A stretch of DNA of 64,000 bases from Thermanaeromonas sp. C210 (GTDB taxonomy: Bacteria; Bacillota; DSM-521; Neomoorellales; Neomoorellaceae): NCBI RefSeq assembly GCF_013167955.1, contig NZ_BLWF01000002.1:475185-539184 (forward strand). The letters run 5' to 3'. The notes below the pieces were generated by a model that saw only the letters and a program-made list of their open reading frames with translations, was not told where the DNA came from and made no database searches. This document shows, piece after piece, positions 48,837 through 55,014 of the stretch. The position numbers and the translations under genes were made by a program. Positions within the stretch are counted from its first letter, which is position 1, and every line of letters starts with the position of its first letter.

Positions 48837-50333
48837 TCAGCGTAGGTATTGGTAAGGATTGCGGAACTCCCCGTCAACCAGAACCTCCAGGTGCAGGTGG
48901 GGACCCGTGGTCCGGCCCGAGGTGCCCACGTAACCTACTATTTGGCCCCGCGACACCCTCTGACCTGTCTTTACATTGTAGCCGGAAAGGTGGGCATAGC
49001 GGGTAACCAGGCCGCCTCCGTGGTCGATGGTTACCATACGGCCGTATCCGCCCATATATCCCACCTGGGTCACCACGCCGTCCTCGGCGGCACCTACAGC
49101 GGTTCCGTAAGAAGCCGCGATATCCAGGCCGGAATGAAACTCCCCGCCCCGGTAACCGTAGGGCGAACTAATAGGACCCGACACCGGCCAGGCCAGGCGG
49201 CCCGAGCCCCCGCGGGCGGCCAGGGCCACTTGTACCTTGGTGCCGCGTTCTACAATTCTGGTGACCGGCTCCTTCAGGACTTTCGCCTCAAGGACTTCTT
49301 TTCCAACAACCCGGCCGTTCTCGGCCACGACGCGGTAGGTTACCTTCTTCTCTCCCTCAACCCCTGCCTGTTTTACCCGCTCCTGACCCCGCCACAGTTG
49401 GGATGTCGTCTTCACCTCGGTGGGATAAGGTATGCTCTCCGTAACCTCCTGCCGGTAAACCACCACTACGTTGAGCAGGGGCTTCCTGGCGCTCAGGTTA
49501 ATTACCTGTCCTATGTCGAGGCGCTCCCCCTGAATTTGCGGGTTGGCTTCCTGCAGCTTTTCTACCGGGAGGTCGAACTTCTGGGCAATGGTCCAGAGGC
49601 AGTCTCCCTCCTGGACGGTATATTGTCTGACTTCTTCGGTTCCTTCCTTAAGAAGGGCGAGAACCTCATCCGGAGAAGCGATGTCCTCCGGGGCCGCCAG
49701 TTGGCGGACCAGACTTACTTTTTCCTTGAACTTTACTTCTTCCACCATAGCCCCCTCGCCCGGCACGAACTCCTTCTTCAGCCGTTCCAGGAGGGCTACG
49801 GCCGTAGCCTCGTCCCGCAACAAAGCGCGGGAGACTCCGTCAATTTCGAGGGCCGTGGCCGGGACCTTGAAGGAAATTCGCCCCGCCAGGAGCCGTTCCA
49901 GCTCCTCGGGGGTATTGATGGCCCCGCGGTCCACCTTCACGGGCAGGTATTCTATTGTTTCGGCAAGCTGGACACCCTCATAGCCGCCTTTTCCCATGGC
50001 CGCCAGGAGATTTTCAACGGCCTGTTGGGCCTCCTCCCTGCTGGCGGCCACGGCCACCCTTTCACCTTCAACGACTACGGCCCAGGCATTGGGAGCCACG
50101 GCCAGACGCCAGCCTGCCAGGAGAATCACTGCGCCTCCTGCTATCCCTATAACCGCTCTTCTGAAGCGGGGAGGTTTGTCCTCCCACTTCCGCCTAAATT
50201 TGTATACCAGCGCCCAACTCTGCTTCAAGCCCTCGGCAGCTCTTTGAGCAGCTCCCTTAACCTTCTCCAACCAATTTCCAGGACTCTCCTTAGGTTGCGG
50301 CAACCCTTCCGGCTGCTCAAGGTGCGGTGGCAT
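48837..50333 (-). CDS. Membrane-anchored LysM-G5-M23 metallopeptidase
   Basis: A 498-residue envelope peptidase. Cytoplasmic N-terminus (about 60 aa), one membrane helix (VIGIAGGAVILLAGWRLAVAP), a helical region with YkuD-associated-like repeats (about 100-240), LysM (about 245-290: YTVQEGDCLWTIAQKFDLP), G5 domain (about 300-370: EVTESIPYPTEVKTTSQLWRG), and M23 peptidase with FHSGLDIAASYG and HLHLEVLVDG. ATG 50333 is preceded by GGGGGGAGG. Similar proteins act at the clostridial cell wall or forespore; the exact role is unknown. Confidence 0.92.
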   Translation of the reverse strand: MPPHLEQPEGLPQPKESPGNWLEKVKGAAQRAAEGLKQSWALVYKFRRKWEDKPPRFRRAVIGIAGGAVILLAGWRLAVAPNAWAVVVEGERVAVAASREEAQQAVENLLAAMGKGGYEGVQLAETIEYLPVKVDRGAINTPEELERLLAGRISFKVPATALEIDGVSRALLRDEATAVALLERLKKEFVPGEGAMVEEVKFKEKVSLVRQLAAPEDIASPDEVLALLKEGTEEVRQYTVQEGDCLWTIAQKFDLPVEKLQEANPQIQGERLDIGQVINLSARKPLLNVVVVYRQEVTESIPYPTEVKTTSQLWRGQERVKQAGVEGEKKVTYRVVAENGRVVGKEVLEAKVLKEPVTRIVERGTKVQVALAARGGSGRLAWPVSGPISSPYGYRGGEFHSGLDIAASYGTAVGAAEDGVVTQVGYMGGYGRMVTIDHGGGLVTRYAHLSGYNVKTGQRVSRGQIVGYVGTSGRTTGPHLHLEVLVDGEFRNPYQYLR

Positions 50334-50448
50334 GACCTCCCCCCTTTGTATATATATTCCGGCCCGCCGTCCTCGGTTCGGCCGACCGCCAACAAGCAAA
50401 GAACGGTAGCACGTTATATATTTCGCTTTAAAGGGAGAGGAATCCTGC

Positions 50449-51855
50449 CTAACTTGAAAAATTCGCCTTTAGTTTCGCCAGGATATACAGGGAGGCTTCC
50501 AGCCTGCTCTGCTGGAGGGCGCAGGCCACCTCATCGGGTTCCCGCAGGTTTCCGGTGGAAGCGAGAGCAGCGGCATGGCACCCGCCGCTGCAGTAAAAGC
50601 GGGCCCAGCAGCGGGCGCACCGGGGTTTTCGGTACACGTAGGCCTGGCGGAACTCCTCCTGCAGGTCCGGCCTCTCGATGCCCCGTTGGACGTGGCCCAG
50701 GCGGAACTCGGACCTGCCCACCAGCTGGTGGCAGGGGTAAAGCTCGCCGTCCGGGGTAACAGCCATATAGCTCACCCCCGCTCCGCAACCGTACAGCCGC
50801 TTGGTAAGACAGGGGCCCCCGCCCAGGTCCAGGTTAAAGTGAAAGAACTCAAAGGGCCGCCCTTCCCGCCTCGCACTGCAGTAAAGATCGGCCAACCGGG
50901 AATATTCCCTCCTCACGGTGGGTATATCCTCCATCCTGAGGCTGTAAGGTGCCTGGGGCGGGGCCACTACCGGCTCCAGGGAAATAAACCGGAAGCCCAA
51001 ACTTAAAAGGTGCTCGACGTCCCGGCTGAAGTCGAGATTGTCCCGGGTATAGGTGCCGCGTATCCAATAGTCCTCGTGACCGCGGGCGGCTGTAAGGGCT
51101 TTGAGGCGCGGGACTACCTGGGCATAGCTGCCTTCCCCGTCCGGCAGGCGGCGGTACCGGTCATGGGTATTTGGCCGCCCGTCCAGGCTCAAAATCACGC
51201 TGATGCGCTCCCGGTTTAAAAACTCCTCTATTTCCGGCGTCAGGCCCAGGCCATTGGTGGTGAGGGTGAAGCGTATTTCCTTCCCCGCGGCTTCGGCCCG
51301 GGCGCGGCCGTAAGCTACTAATTCCCGCACCGTATCGAAATTGAGCAGGGGTTCGCCGCCGAAAAAATCTACTTCCACCCGCGGCCGCCTTCCGGCGAGG
51401 CGGAACAGAAGGTCCAGGGCCGCGCGGCCAACTGCGCGGCTCATGAGGCCACGGCGGCCGCCGAAGGGACCTCCCCCGGCAAAGCAGTACCGGCAGCGCA
51501 TGTTGCAGTCGTGGGACACGTGGAGGCAAAGGGCCTGCAGTACCGGCTCCGGCGGTCGGTAAAGGCCAGCGGCGAGGTCCCGGGTAAAAAGACTGCCCTC
51601 CTCCTGGCAGCGCGCCAGGTCGGCCAGCACCTCGTCCACCACCTCCCGACCGTAGCAGCCGGTGCTGCGCGCCAGGGCAGAATACTCTATGCGGTTACAA
51701 CCGGCCAGATCAGCGAGAACGTCCTTGGTGGGTTGGTCGATGATATGGAGGGCGCCGCTGTTGACATCTAACAGGAGGTCCAGGTCGTTAAAGGTAAACC
51801 AGTGTATATCGGCCTGCCAGTCTACATCCCGCAGGTCGGGTATCCTTTTCGTCAT
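50449..51855 (-). CDS. scfB: Radical SAM SCIFF peptide maturase
   Basis: Forms the Cys-to-Thr thioether bond in the SCIFF ranthipeptide. It is 468 aa: N-terminal RiPP recognition element-like region (about 1-90: FTFNDLDLLLDVNSGALHIID), radical SAM core with CNMRCRYC (near residue 118), and a C-terminal SPASM/twitch region with GGGPCLTKRLYGCGAG, YPCHQLVG and CARCWARFYCSGGCHA for auxiliary Fe-S clusters. The ATG has GAGGGTG 7 nt upstream. Its peptide lies 774 bp upstream instead of directly adjacent. Confidence 0.93.
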   Translation of the reverse strand: MTKRIPDLRDVDWQADIHWFTFNDLDLLLDVNSGALHIIDQPTKDVLADLAGCNRIEYSALARSTGCYGREVVDEVLADLARCQEEGSLFTRDLAAGLYRPPEPVLQALCLHVSHDCNMRCRYCFAGGGPFGGRRGLMSRAVGRAALDLLFRLAGRRPRVEVDFFGGEPLLNFDTVRELVAYGRARAEAAGKEIRFTLTTNGLGLTPEIEEFLNRERISVILSLDGRPNTHDRYRRLPDGEGSYAQVVPRLKALTAARGHEDYWIRGTYTRDNLDFSRDVEHLLSLGFRFISLEPVVAPPQAPYSLRMEDIPTVRREYSRLADLYCSARREGRPFEFFHFNLDLGGGPCLTKRLYGCGAGVSYMAVTPDGELYPCHQLVGRSEFRLGHVQRGIERPDLQEEFRQAYVYRKPRCARCWARFYCSGGCHAAALASTGNLREPDEVACALQQSRLEASLYILAKLKANFSS

Positions 51856-51884
51856 TCTCCCACACCCTCATACGGTACTAGGTC

Positions 51885-51909
51885 GGAGCCCGGGGGATTT
51901 CCGGGCTCC
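51885..51909. repeat. 9-bp perfect hairpin in the scfB leader
   Basis: GGAGCCCGG and CCGGGCTCC flank a 7-nt loop about 30 bp before the scfB start. There is no T-run, so it may stabilise the 5' end or affect initiation. Confidence 0.45.
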
Positions 51910-51949
51910 CGCGGTGTATCGCCCGCTCACAGGGGAGTGACTTATAACT

Positions 51950-52080
51950 CGCAAGGGGGCTTCAGCCTAAGGGGAAGGCGGGCCCTTGCGCAATTGGAGC
52001 CGCCGGCCGGGCTAAAGCATAAGGCCGCCTGCGGCCCGCTCCTGAGGCAAGGGGTTCGAATGATGCGGGAGACCCGTGGC
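51950..52080. repeat. Mosaic dispersed repeat, fragment
   Basis: GCCTGCGGCCCGCTCCTGAG here is identical to a stretch of the reverse complement of 20263-20470, and the flanking GGGCTAAAGC and CGCAAGGG segments resemble the 53735 and 22579 copies. Boundaries are approximate. It lies in the long scfA-scfB gap. Confidence 0.5.
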
Positions 52081-52161
52081 TGAAAACCGGGTACCGATCT
52101 TCCTCCGCCAATCTCGTTGACCCACCCAAGGCCGTGCCGCAGAGGCCTTAAGGACGCCAAC

Positions 52162-52197
52162 AAAAAAGCCGGCTCCCTGCGAGGGGGAAACCGGCTT
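52162..52197 (-). terminator. Intrinsic terminator between scfA and scfB
   Basis: Minus strand AGCCGGTTTCCC pairs with GGGAGCCGGCT and is followed by TTTTTTG. It would separate scfB from the upstream rplM-rpsI-scfA transcript. Between 52198 and 52540 there is a GC-rich stretch with no recognised gene; a 139-codon ORF there (52200-52619) lacks family resemblance. Confidence 0.75.
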
Positions 52198-52542
52198 CCC
52201 TACCGCCCCATTTTGTCCCCGGGGACGGGAACGGGTACCCACGCCCGGAGGTTGCCACCCTCCCGTGCCCTCCCGAAGCTGACCATGGCCTCCGCCTGAC
52301 TCCCCAGCAAGGCCATAGGCGGCATCTCCTGCCCTGCCCTGTGTATCCCACCCCGAGCTGACCCCTTAGCCATGGCGGAGGCCCGGCGACCCTTCGCCCG
52401 CGGCATCGATCTCGTCCCCGCGGCTCCGGGCGGGACCCGGGACCCTGAGGAACTGGCGATGCTCCAACCTCTTTGCCTCGCGCCACCGGGCAGGGGCTTA
52501 AGTACTGCCGGAGCCCGGGAATGACCACTGGTCAGGGCCGGG

Positions 52543-52563
52543 CAAAAGGCCCCCAGGGGGGCC
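52543..52563 (-). terminator. Weak terminator about 65 bp after scfA
   Basis: Minus strand GGCCCC-CCTG-GGGGCC is followed by TTTTG. Confidence 0.45.
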
Positions 52564-52591
52564 AGGCCGAGGGCCCCTTTCCGGAGTGCCA

Positions 52592-52617
52592 GCCGGCGGG
52601 GTCCGGCTCCCGCCGGC
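52592..52617. repeat. 9-bp hairpin right after the SCIFF stop codon
   Basis: GCCGGCGGG and CCCGCCGGC with an 8-nt loop start 12 bp after the scfA stop. It may protect the 3' end of the peptide mRNA. Confidence 0.5.
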
Positions 52618-52628
52618 ACCCGGCTCTT

Positions 52629-52799
52629 CTACTTCATCACGGATGGACGAGAGCTGGTCCTCTGGCCGTTTTCACAAGCCTGATTGCTGACAGTAATGGA
52701 GGTTTTGCAGGCCGACTGGCAGGAAACCCGGCAGTATCCGCAGCCGCCCCTTTGCAGGGTCTCTTGCAATCGCGGTTGGCTCACGGTAATGATATGCAT
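52629..52799 (-). CDS. scfA: SCIFF ranthipeptide precursor, five-cysteine variant
   Basis: A 56-residue precursor of the SCIFF family. The core is GGCGYCRVSCQSACKTSI and then TVSNQACEN, with Cys at 20, 23, 27, 31 and 42. The canonical sequence has a sixth Cys where this one has Ile35 (KTSC becomes KTSI). Cys31 and Thr36 correspond to the pair thioether-linked in Clostridium thermocellum CteA. The tail after residue 43 is longer than usual. ATG 52799 lies behind GGGGTGA and begins 20 bp after the rpsI stop, so it is probably transcribed with rplM-rpsI. It is the substrate of ScfB. Confidence 0.92.
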   Translation of the reverse strand: MHIITVSQPRLQETLQRGGCGYCRVSCQSACKTSITVSNQACENGQRTSSRPSVMK

Positions 52800-52818
52800 T
52801 ATAGGCTCACCCCGGCTT

Positions 52819-53211
52819 CTAGCGTTTGGAGAATTGAGGTGCCTTGCGCGCTTTTTTCAGCCCGTACTTGCGCCGCTCCTTCATGCGGGGATCCCGGGTA
52901 AGGAACCCGGCCCGCCGCAATACCGGTCGCAGTTCGGCGTCGGCCTGAAGGAGGGCCCGGGCTATCCCCAGGCGCACCGCCCCGGCCTGGCCGCTCAAGC
53001 CGCCCCCTTCTACCTTGGCCACCACATCGAAGCGGTCCGCCATCCGCGCCACCTCGAGGGGGCGGCGTATCATATCGGCCAAAACCTGCTGGCCGAAATA
53101 TTCTATAGGCGTCCTATCGTTTATGATTATACGGCCTTCCCCTGGAATCAGCCTTACCCGGGCCACCGCTTCCTTGCGCCGTCCCGTGCCGTAGAACTGT
53201 ACCTGTGCCAA
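52819..53211 (-). CDS. rpsI: Ribosomal protein S9
   Basis: 30S subunit protein, 130 aa. Starts [21 protein letters not shown] and ends in the typical basic tail [12 protein letters not shown], whose last Arg reaches the P-site tRNA. Follows rplM by 17 bp. Confidence 0.98.
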
Positions 53212-53228
53212 ACCCTTCGCCTCCTTCT

Positions 53229-53663
53229 TTAATCCCTAGCCGTCCATACTTCTGGCTTTTGTGCCTGGTGGGGATGGGTGTCGCCCCGGTAGACTCTCAG
53301 CTTCTTGATGATCTTGCGTCCCAGCCGGTTGTGGGGTAGCATCCCCCAGACGGCCTTGTGCACGGCCTTTTCCGGCTGGGTTTTGAGCAGGGTGCCGTAC
53401 TTGATCCGTTTGAGCCCTCCGGGATAACCCGAATGGCGGATGTACTCCTTCTGCTCCAGTTTCTTGCCGGTCAACCGTACCTTCTCGGCATTTATGATGA
53501 TGACGTGGTCACCGGTGTCCACGTGGGGAGTATAGATGGGTTTATGCTTTCCCCGCAGCAGGGCTGCCGCCGTGGCCGCTACGCGCCCCAGGCTCTTGCC
53601 GGCGGCGTCGATGACGTACCACTTGCGCTGCACCTCATGGGGTTTGGCCATAAAGGTCTTCAT
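53229..53663 (-). CDS. rplM: Ribosomal protein L13
   Basis: 50S assembly-initiator protein, 144 aa. Motifs: [38 protein letters not shown], and [26 protein letters not shown] 53663 is behind CAGGAGGGAG; a longer frame upstream has no family match. A 610-bp non-coding gap with a repeat separates it from truA. Confidence 0.98.
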
Positions 53664-53734
53664 TTTCTCCCTCCTGTTTCCGCTCAGCCTAATTTTACGA
53701 GAATACACGATCCAAGTCAACTAAAGGACATCTA

Positions 53735-53989
53735 GCGTATCCCCATTTTGGGGGTAGAGGCTGCCTTGGCTTGAAAGCGAGCGACTAACCCGAGCGGCTG
53801 CCAAACTTCATGAAGTCGAAAGCGGAGGCGGACCCGAGGCCATGGACGGCCGAGGCCCGCAATTGAGATAGGAGGATGTCGAATTTGCCGGGAAGTCCGC
53901 CGGAGCTTAAGACTGAGTGATAGTTTAGCCCGCGAGGGTTTCTGGAGCGAGCGAAAGCCGAGCAGACCTATGCTCGAAAATGGGATCGC
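53735..53989. repeat. Mosaic dispersed repeat, longest copy, with terminal inverted repeats
   Basis: About 255 bp, from GCGTATCCCCATTTT to CGAAAATGGGATCGC, an imperfect terminal inverted repeat of about 15 bp. It has long blocks in common with 22579-22747 (reverse orientation) and 19236-19339. No transposase is encoded. It resembles a MITE. The rest of the rplM-truA gap (53990-54273) is GC-rich and shows no recognisable gene. Confidence 0.75.
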
Positions 53990-54273
53990 CAGAAGAGCCA
54001 TGGCACATCCCTCTATGGTCACCCTTCCCTGCGGGACCCGCAGGCCGGGCCGACCCCAAATTCCCGGGTCAAGGAGGATTTTCCGTCGCCCGGCCGCCGT
54101 GCTCCGGGAACCGGGCCCGGGAGATAACCCTTCCCTGGCCCTGCCCCATCCTCGTAACGCCCGGGCCTTCCGCCCGCCTCGGGTAGCCCCCTTGCGGGAT
54201 AAACCCCCTTTTAGACGGGGGATAGTCCGCGGCGGCCGTATAGCCTCGCTTTTTCTTCCAGCACCGGCGCGCC

Positions 54274-55014
54274 TCAATACTCCACGCGTTCCAGGCACAG
54301 GCCCTGGGGCGGCGCCGTAGGTCCCGCTTCCTCCCGCCGGCGGCCGGCCAGAATCCTTCCCATATCCCCGGGATCTCGCCGCCCCAGACCGATTTCCACC
54401 AGGGTGCCGACGATAATGCGCACCATGTGGTACAGGAAGCCGTCGGCCGTAATGTCCAGGTAGAGGAAGGGTTCCCGGCGGGTCCACCTGATATCCTTAA
54501 TTTCCCGTTCGAAGTTCTTAACGGGCCGGCCCGCCGCGGCGAAGGCGCGGAAATCATGGCGTCCCTTTAGGCTTGCGGCCGCCTCTTTCATGGCATCCAG
54601 GTCCAGGGGCCGCCGGACGTGCCAGGCATAGCGCCGTCGAAACACATCGGGAAGGGCGCCGTTGTCGATGGTATAGCGGTAGGTCTTGCTCCTGGCCGAA
54701 TAGCGGGCGTGAAAGTCCGGCCCCACCTCCTCGGCCTTGAGGGCCACGATGTCCGGCGGCAGTACGCTGTTTAAGGCCCACGGCCAGCGCTCTGTAGGTA
54801 TCTTGCTCCCAGTGGCCAGGCTTATTACCTGACCCCGGGCGTGAACCCCGGCATCGGTGCGGCCGGCCGCTATCACCCGGATCCTTTCACCCGTCAGCCG
54901 GGCCAGGGCTTCCTCCACCCTCTGCTGGATGGTAGGGCCGTGCTCCCGGGGCTGCACCTGCCAGCCGGCGTAGTCGGTGCCGTCGTAGGCCAGGGTGATC
55001 TTCAGGTACCTCAT
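54274..55014 (-). CDS. truA: tRNA pseudouridine(38-40) synthase
   Basis: Modifies the anticodon arm of many tRNAs, 246 aa. Catalytic Asp in [16 protein letters not shown]; other blocks are [29 protein letters not shown], and [19 protein letters not shown]. The truA-ecfT-ecfA-rplQ linkage is the usual Firmicutes order. Confidence 0.96.

Follow-up and report, generated by a model that had tools for sequence, protein, structure and literature searches.

The closest described counterparts of the locus reported here are two pairs of a SCIFF precursor peptide and its maturase, namely CteA/CteB of Clostridium thermocellum (thermocellin; PDB 5wgg and 5why) and Tte1186a/Tte1186 of Caldanaerobacter subterraneus, the latter peptide being described with six cysteines and reported to carry a single thioether whose donor is Cys32 (PMC8326336). 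The acceptor of this bond has been the subject of dispute. According to two reviews (PMC8326336, PMC8172795), two in vitro studies assigned the bond to Cys32-Thr37, in Tte1186a as well as in CteA, whereas a Cys32-Thr34 bond via the gamma carbon was obtained when CteA and CteB were coexpressed in E. coli, and the results of the laboratories are reported there to be in disagreement. The six cysteines from which the family takes its name are considered an average rather than a rule in one of these reviews (PMC8172795). With regard to biological function, C. beijerinckii responded to disruption of its SCIFF precursor and radical SAM genes with downregulation of sporulation genes and upregulation of the agr locus (Chen 2020, as summarised in PMC8102284), and by analogy with that account the product of the scfA gene discussed below would likely act as a signal peptide with effects on sporulation and quorum sensing.

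The scfA-scfB Locus

The window, which denotes the whole 64,000-nucleotide stretch of Thermanaeromonas sp. C210 DNA that was analysed, harbors a SCIFF precursor gene, scfA, at positions 52629..52799 of the minus strand. This open reading frame of 56 amino acids begins with an ATG, is preceded on its 5' side by a ribosome-site-like GGGGTGA, and is translated as MHIITVSQPRLQETLQRGGCGYCRVSCQSACKTSITVSNQACENGQRTSSRPSVMK. Its five cysteines are located at residues 20, 23, 27, 31, and 42, and residue 35 is an isoleucine, so that an earlier note describing a SCIFF precursor with five cysteines and an isoleucine for the usual cysteine is confirmed. The peptide scored 68.1 bits with the TIGR03973 profile (cut-off 50) and 69.2 bits with PF13165 (cut-off 27), while a structure search with the peptide alone matched no solved structure. 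Each residue number in the window is one lower than in CteA and Tte1186a, and therefore Cys31, Thr33, Ile35, and Thr36 correspond to Cys32, Thr34, Cys36, and Thr37. All four codons lie on the minus strand: that of Cys31, the counterpart of the thioether donor in CteA and Tte1186a (donor role per PMC8326336), at 52707..52709, that of Thr33 at 52701..52703, the ATT of Ile35 at 52695..52697, and that of Thr36 at 52692..52694. The donor and both candidate acceptors of a ranthipeptide are thus present, and the statement that the donor cysteine had been kept holds at the sequence level.

The maturase gene scfB, adjacent on the downstream side (50449..51855, minus strand), encodes a radical SAM/SPASM protein of 468 amino acids, which reached 535.6 bits with TIGR03974 (cut-off 425). 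Its match to CteB (PDB 5wgg/5why) scores 445.6 bits and shows the cluster cysteines preserved; both the CX3CX2C motif and the SPASM cluster cysteines were found intact in an alignment of 100 ScfB proteins as well as against CteB. The window shares with CteA/CteB the maturase family, the leader-core layout, the donor cysteine, and both candidate threonine acceptors; the difference, with CteA compared by description, is that CteA-type peptides carry Cys36 where the window has Ile35. With five cysteines the peptide falls short of "six cysteines in about 45 residues", although it is still filed as a SCIFF member because of its model score and its TIGR03974 partner, the six cysteines being the origin of the name and not the criterion of the curators. 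Five-cysteine relatives likewise exceed the cut-off of the SCIFF model. The identity of the gene and of its partner is established.

The gene order rplM-rpsI-scfA-scfB and the core CQSACKTSITVSNQxC with its isoleucine are shared with the SCIFF loci of Moorella and Thermanaeromonas. The start of scfA follows the stop codon of rpsI after 19 bases, and rplM-rpsI followed by scfA (region 52629-53720 in the window) was found in 14 of the 87 loci examined, every one of the Moorellaceae type, while scfA is situated elsewhere in the other lineages. Two features set the window apart from these relatives. The tail past the last cysteine comprises 14 residues, in contrast with about 6 in Moorella; it had been noted as longer than usual, and it is indeed above the median of 5 among 110 distinct cores, yet precedented, since tails of up to 19 residues occur. 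Moreover, the spacer between scfA and scfB (51856..52628) is about 765-770 bp long, in comparison with 4-250 bp in the Moorella and Thermanaeromonas loci and in most relatives. It is devoid of any family or RNA match, part of it has short matches of 72-86% at three other sites in the genome, an Rfam scan of 50000-54300 gave a single chance match far under its cut-off, and no tRNA was found in the window.

The lost cysteine, the long tail, and the unusually long spacer could be taken together as signs of a relaxed or failing system, in which scfA is decaying and the cysteine loss is a step toward a pseudogene. This interpretation is very improbable, however, as both peptide and enzyme score well over their cut-offs, the cluster cysteines of ScfB are intact, and the same five-cysteine core extends across the whole family Moorellaceae.

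Downstream of scfB, a gene for a LysM-G5-M23 peptidase is found at 48837-50399 of the minus strand. In many further Bacillota loci a homologue of this gene is likewise located in the vicinity of scfB, of which it is possibly a functional neighbour.

Replacement of the Cysteine at Position 36

The distribution of the replacement (position 36 in the CteA numbering, which is used from here on for the family) was surveyed in 84,980 species' genomes by means of the CQSACKTS-x-T core, in which the codon for position 36 was required to begin with a base other than T. Sixty-seven loci were retrieved, the majority of which proved to be real SCIFF genes once translated; L047, L052, L062, L071, L075, L088, and L093 were rejected as chance matches in unrelated frames. 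The residue at position 36 was isoleucine in Moorella, Thermanaeromonas, Vulcanibacillus, and Tepidibacillus, leucine in Desulfovirgula and in MAGs of Peptococcaceae and Desulfotomaculaceae, alanine in Clostridium, Sarcina, Caloramator, and Fervidicella, and valine in termite-gut MAGs. In a second sample of 398 genomes drawn evenly from the phylum of the window, the core with any residue at position 36 was present in 316 genomes, 19 of them with a non-cysteine codon lacking an initial T and at least six further ones (G019, G155, G256, G279, G343, and G364) with a TTR leucine codon, so that at least 25 genomes of this sample lack the cysteine.

All 13 motif-bearing Moorellaceae genomes in the sample have isoleucine at this position, encoded by ATT, ATC, or ATA. 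The earlier note had treated the loss as particular to this peptide and had named many family members with isoleucine here as evidence to the contrary; such members do exist, and other lineages lack the cysteine too. A sequencing or assembly error for a TGC or TGT codon, for which no supporting point was found, is refuted by these independent genomes with three different isoleucine codons, and a single miscall is excluded because ATT is two base changes away from TGT; the chance that such an error accounts for Ile35 is practically negligible. Ile35 is hence an ordinary clade-wide variant, neither an error nor an oddity.

Conservation was counted over the 110 distinct full-length cores, after the rows L136 (insertion) and L209 (mis-anchored) had been corrected by eye. 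Cysteines 21, 24, 28, 32, and 43 are present in 110 of 110 cores, a constancy that is partly by construction at Cys28 and Cys32, as is that of Lys33 and Thr34, given that most loci were found by patterns fixing Cys28, Cys32, Lys33, and Thr34, while Cys21, Cys24, and Cys43 were unconstrained by the search. Position 36, by comparison, is occupied by cysteine in 69 cores, isoleucine, leucine, and alanine in 12 each, valine and serine in two each, and glutamate in one. Judged from these alignments, Cys36 appears to be the sole SCIFF cysteine that is freely lost. The question raised earlier, whether the sixth cysteine is needed, thereby receives a comparative answer, namely that it appears dispensable in many lineages, and the supposition that six cysteines were a family rule is not upheld, in line with the review cited above.

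To follow the history of the loss, each SCIFF gene was matched to the radical SAM gene lying closest on its downstream side, and a maximum-likelihood tree of 100 non-redundant ScfB proteins was constructed by a quick search that left many inner branches weak. On this tree a minimum of 10 changes is required to explain the label of cysteine or non-cysteine at position 36, and strongly supported branches force 7 of them; the sample is enriched in non-Cys36 peptides and gives no frequency. The 12 Moorellaceae-type rows, each with isoleucine, group in a single clade at a support of 99. Repeated as well as clade-wide loss is thus established, and the topology indicates that the loss is old within the Moorellaceae and recurrent outside, the replacement of Cys36 by isoleucine presumably predating the diversification of that family. 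Such a clade-wide variant is useful as a natural experiment.

Alternatively, the loss of Cys36 might mark a functional switch, in which an altered maturase accompanies it and the five-cysteine peptides acquire a different bond or product. A scan of the 100 ScfB proteins for columns co-varying with Cys36 gave no significant result and one weak lead, residue 221 of the window ScfB (CteB V211), which is valine in 53 of 57 Cys36 systems and in 15 of the 43 others, the rest being mostly isoleucine. About 3.6 independent pairs agree with this lead and none oppose it, but only 7 independent pairs exist, the median p is 0.125, and the column is an uncorrected pick from hundreds. In addition, the many different substitutes for Cys36 fit tolerance better than a new role, and a switch of this kind is regarded as improbable.

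The reading considered probable is that of an ordinary Moorellaceae-type SCIFF/ScfB ranthipeptide pair with a thioether from Cys31 to a threonine and with position 35 outside the bond. The RRE domain of ScfB would bind the N-terminal leader of the scfA peptide, whereupon the enzyme would link Cys31 through a single radical thioether to a threonine close by, Thr33 being a likelier acceptor than Thr36. Position 35 would not participate in the thioether and would tolerate Ile, Leu, Ala, Val, Ser, or Glu, and the mature product may well work without a cysteine there.

Acceptor of the Thioether Bond

The family comparison prompted by Ile35 also provides natural evidence on the disputed acceptor. 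Among those of the 398 genomes that have a Cys36 codon, Thr37 has given way to glycine in 7, which belong to 6 genera (L149-L155, reading CKTSCGVANQ or CKTSCGIANQ); this was the sole replacement seen, and Thr34 was always kept. Glycine has no side chain suitable for such a thioether, and these peptides therefore cannot bond at position 37. Conversely, a search for loci in which the Thr34 codon is exchanged for one with a first base other than A returned no real SCIFF, its one match (L148) being an 11-residue ORF rejected as a chance match, and a replacement by an A-starting non-threonine codon was seen in 0 of 149 genomes. Thr34 was also present in 26 of 26 cores that had been found by the family model without any pattern. 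Natural variation consequently favours Thr34, which is Thr33 in the window, as the needed acceptor and speaks against Thr37 being required. Since threonine still occupies position 37 in most SCIFF peptides, it may serve as an acceptor where present.

The pair Cys31/Thr36 had been put forward in the earlier note as the known cross-link. Both residues are present in the peptide, but the choice of acceptor is contested according to the reviews (PMC8326336, PMC8172795), and the Gly37 peptides of six genera weigh against Thr36 as a required acceptor.

Two-Cysteine Peptides of Coprothermobacterota

The position-36 pattern also matched short ORFs of Coprothermobacter platensis and of MAGs related to it (L040, L049, L097, L050, and L051, also L244-L249), as exemplified by MVKVIIRNELQKDEDFKGACQTACKTSATVSNVTFEPEQ, and this is a more interesting outcome than the Ile35 variant itself. 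These peptides resemble that of the window in the ACQTACKTSATVSN core, the donor cysteine, both threonines, and a ScfB homologue directly downstream, the start of which each ORF overlaps or abuts. Unlike the window peptide, they retain only two cysteines, Cys28 and Cys32, together with Thr34 and Thr37, and position 36 is alanine. With TIGR03973, whose cut-off is 50, three of the peptides reached 22-25 bits, and with TIGR03974, whose cut-off is 425, three of the maturases reached 385-401; because these scores lie under the cut-offs, neither peptides nor enzymes would be named by the two models. The two-cysteine peptide is the top SCIFF match genome-wide in five such genomes, and the two-cysteine core occurs in 6 of 9 Coprothermobacterota genomes. 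Their maturases constitute a separate clade with full support in the 100-ScfB tree and have serine at the site of Cys349 of the window ScfB, which is cysteine in other ScfB proteins. No paper on the two-cysteine peptide was found in the literature searched, outside which most subscription journals lie.

It is therefore slightly favoured that the minimal substrate of ScfB is a Cys32-Thr34 core to which Cys36 and Thr37 are optional, the Coprothermobacterota peptide being a two-cysteine ranthipeptide that would illustrate how little suffices. The Gly37/Thr34 peptides, along with the two-cysteine peptides and their own maturase, represent ready substrates for the question of Thr34 versus Thr37.
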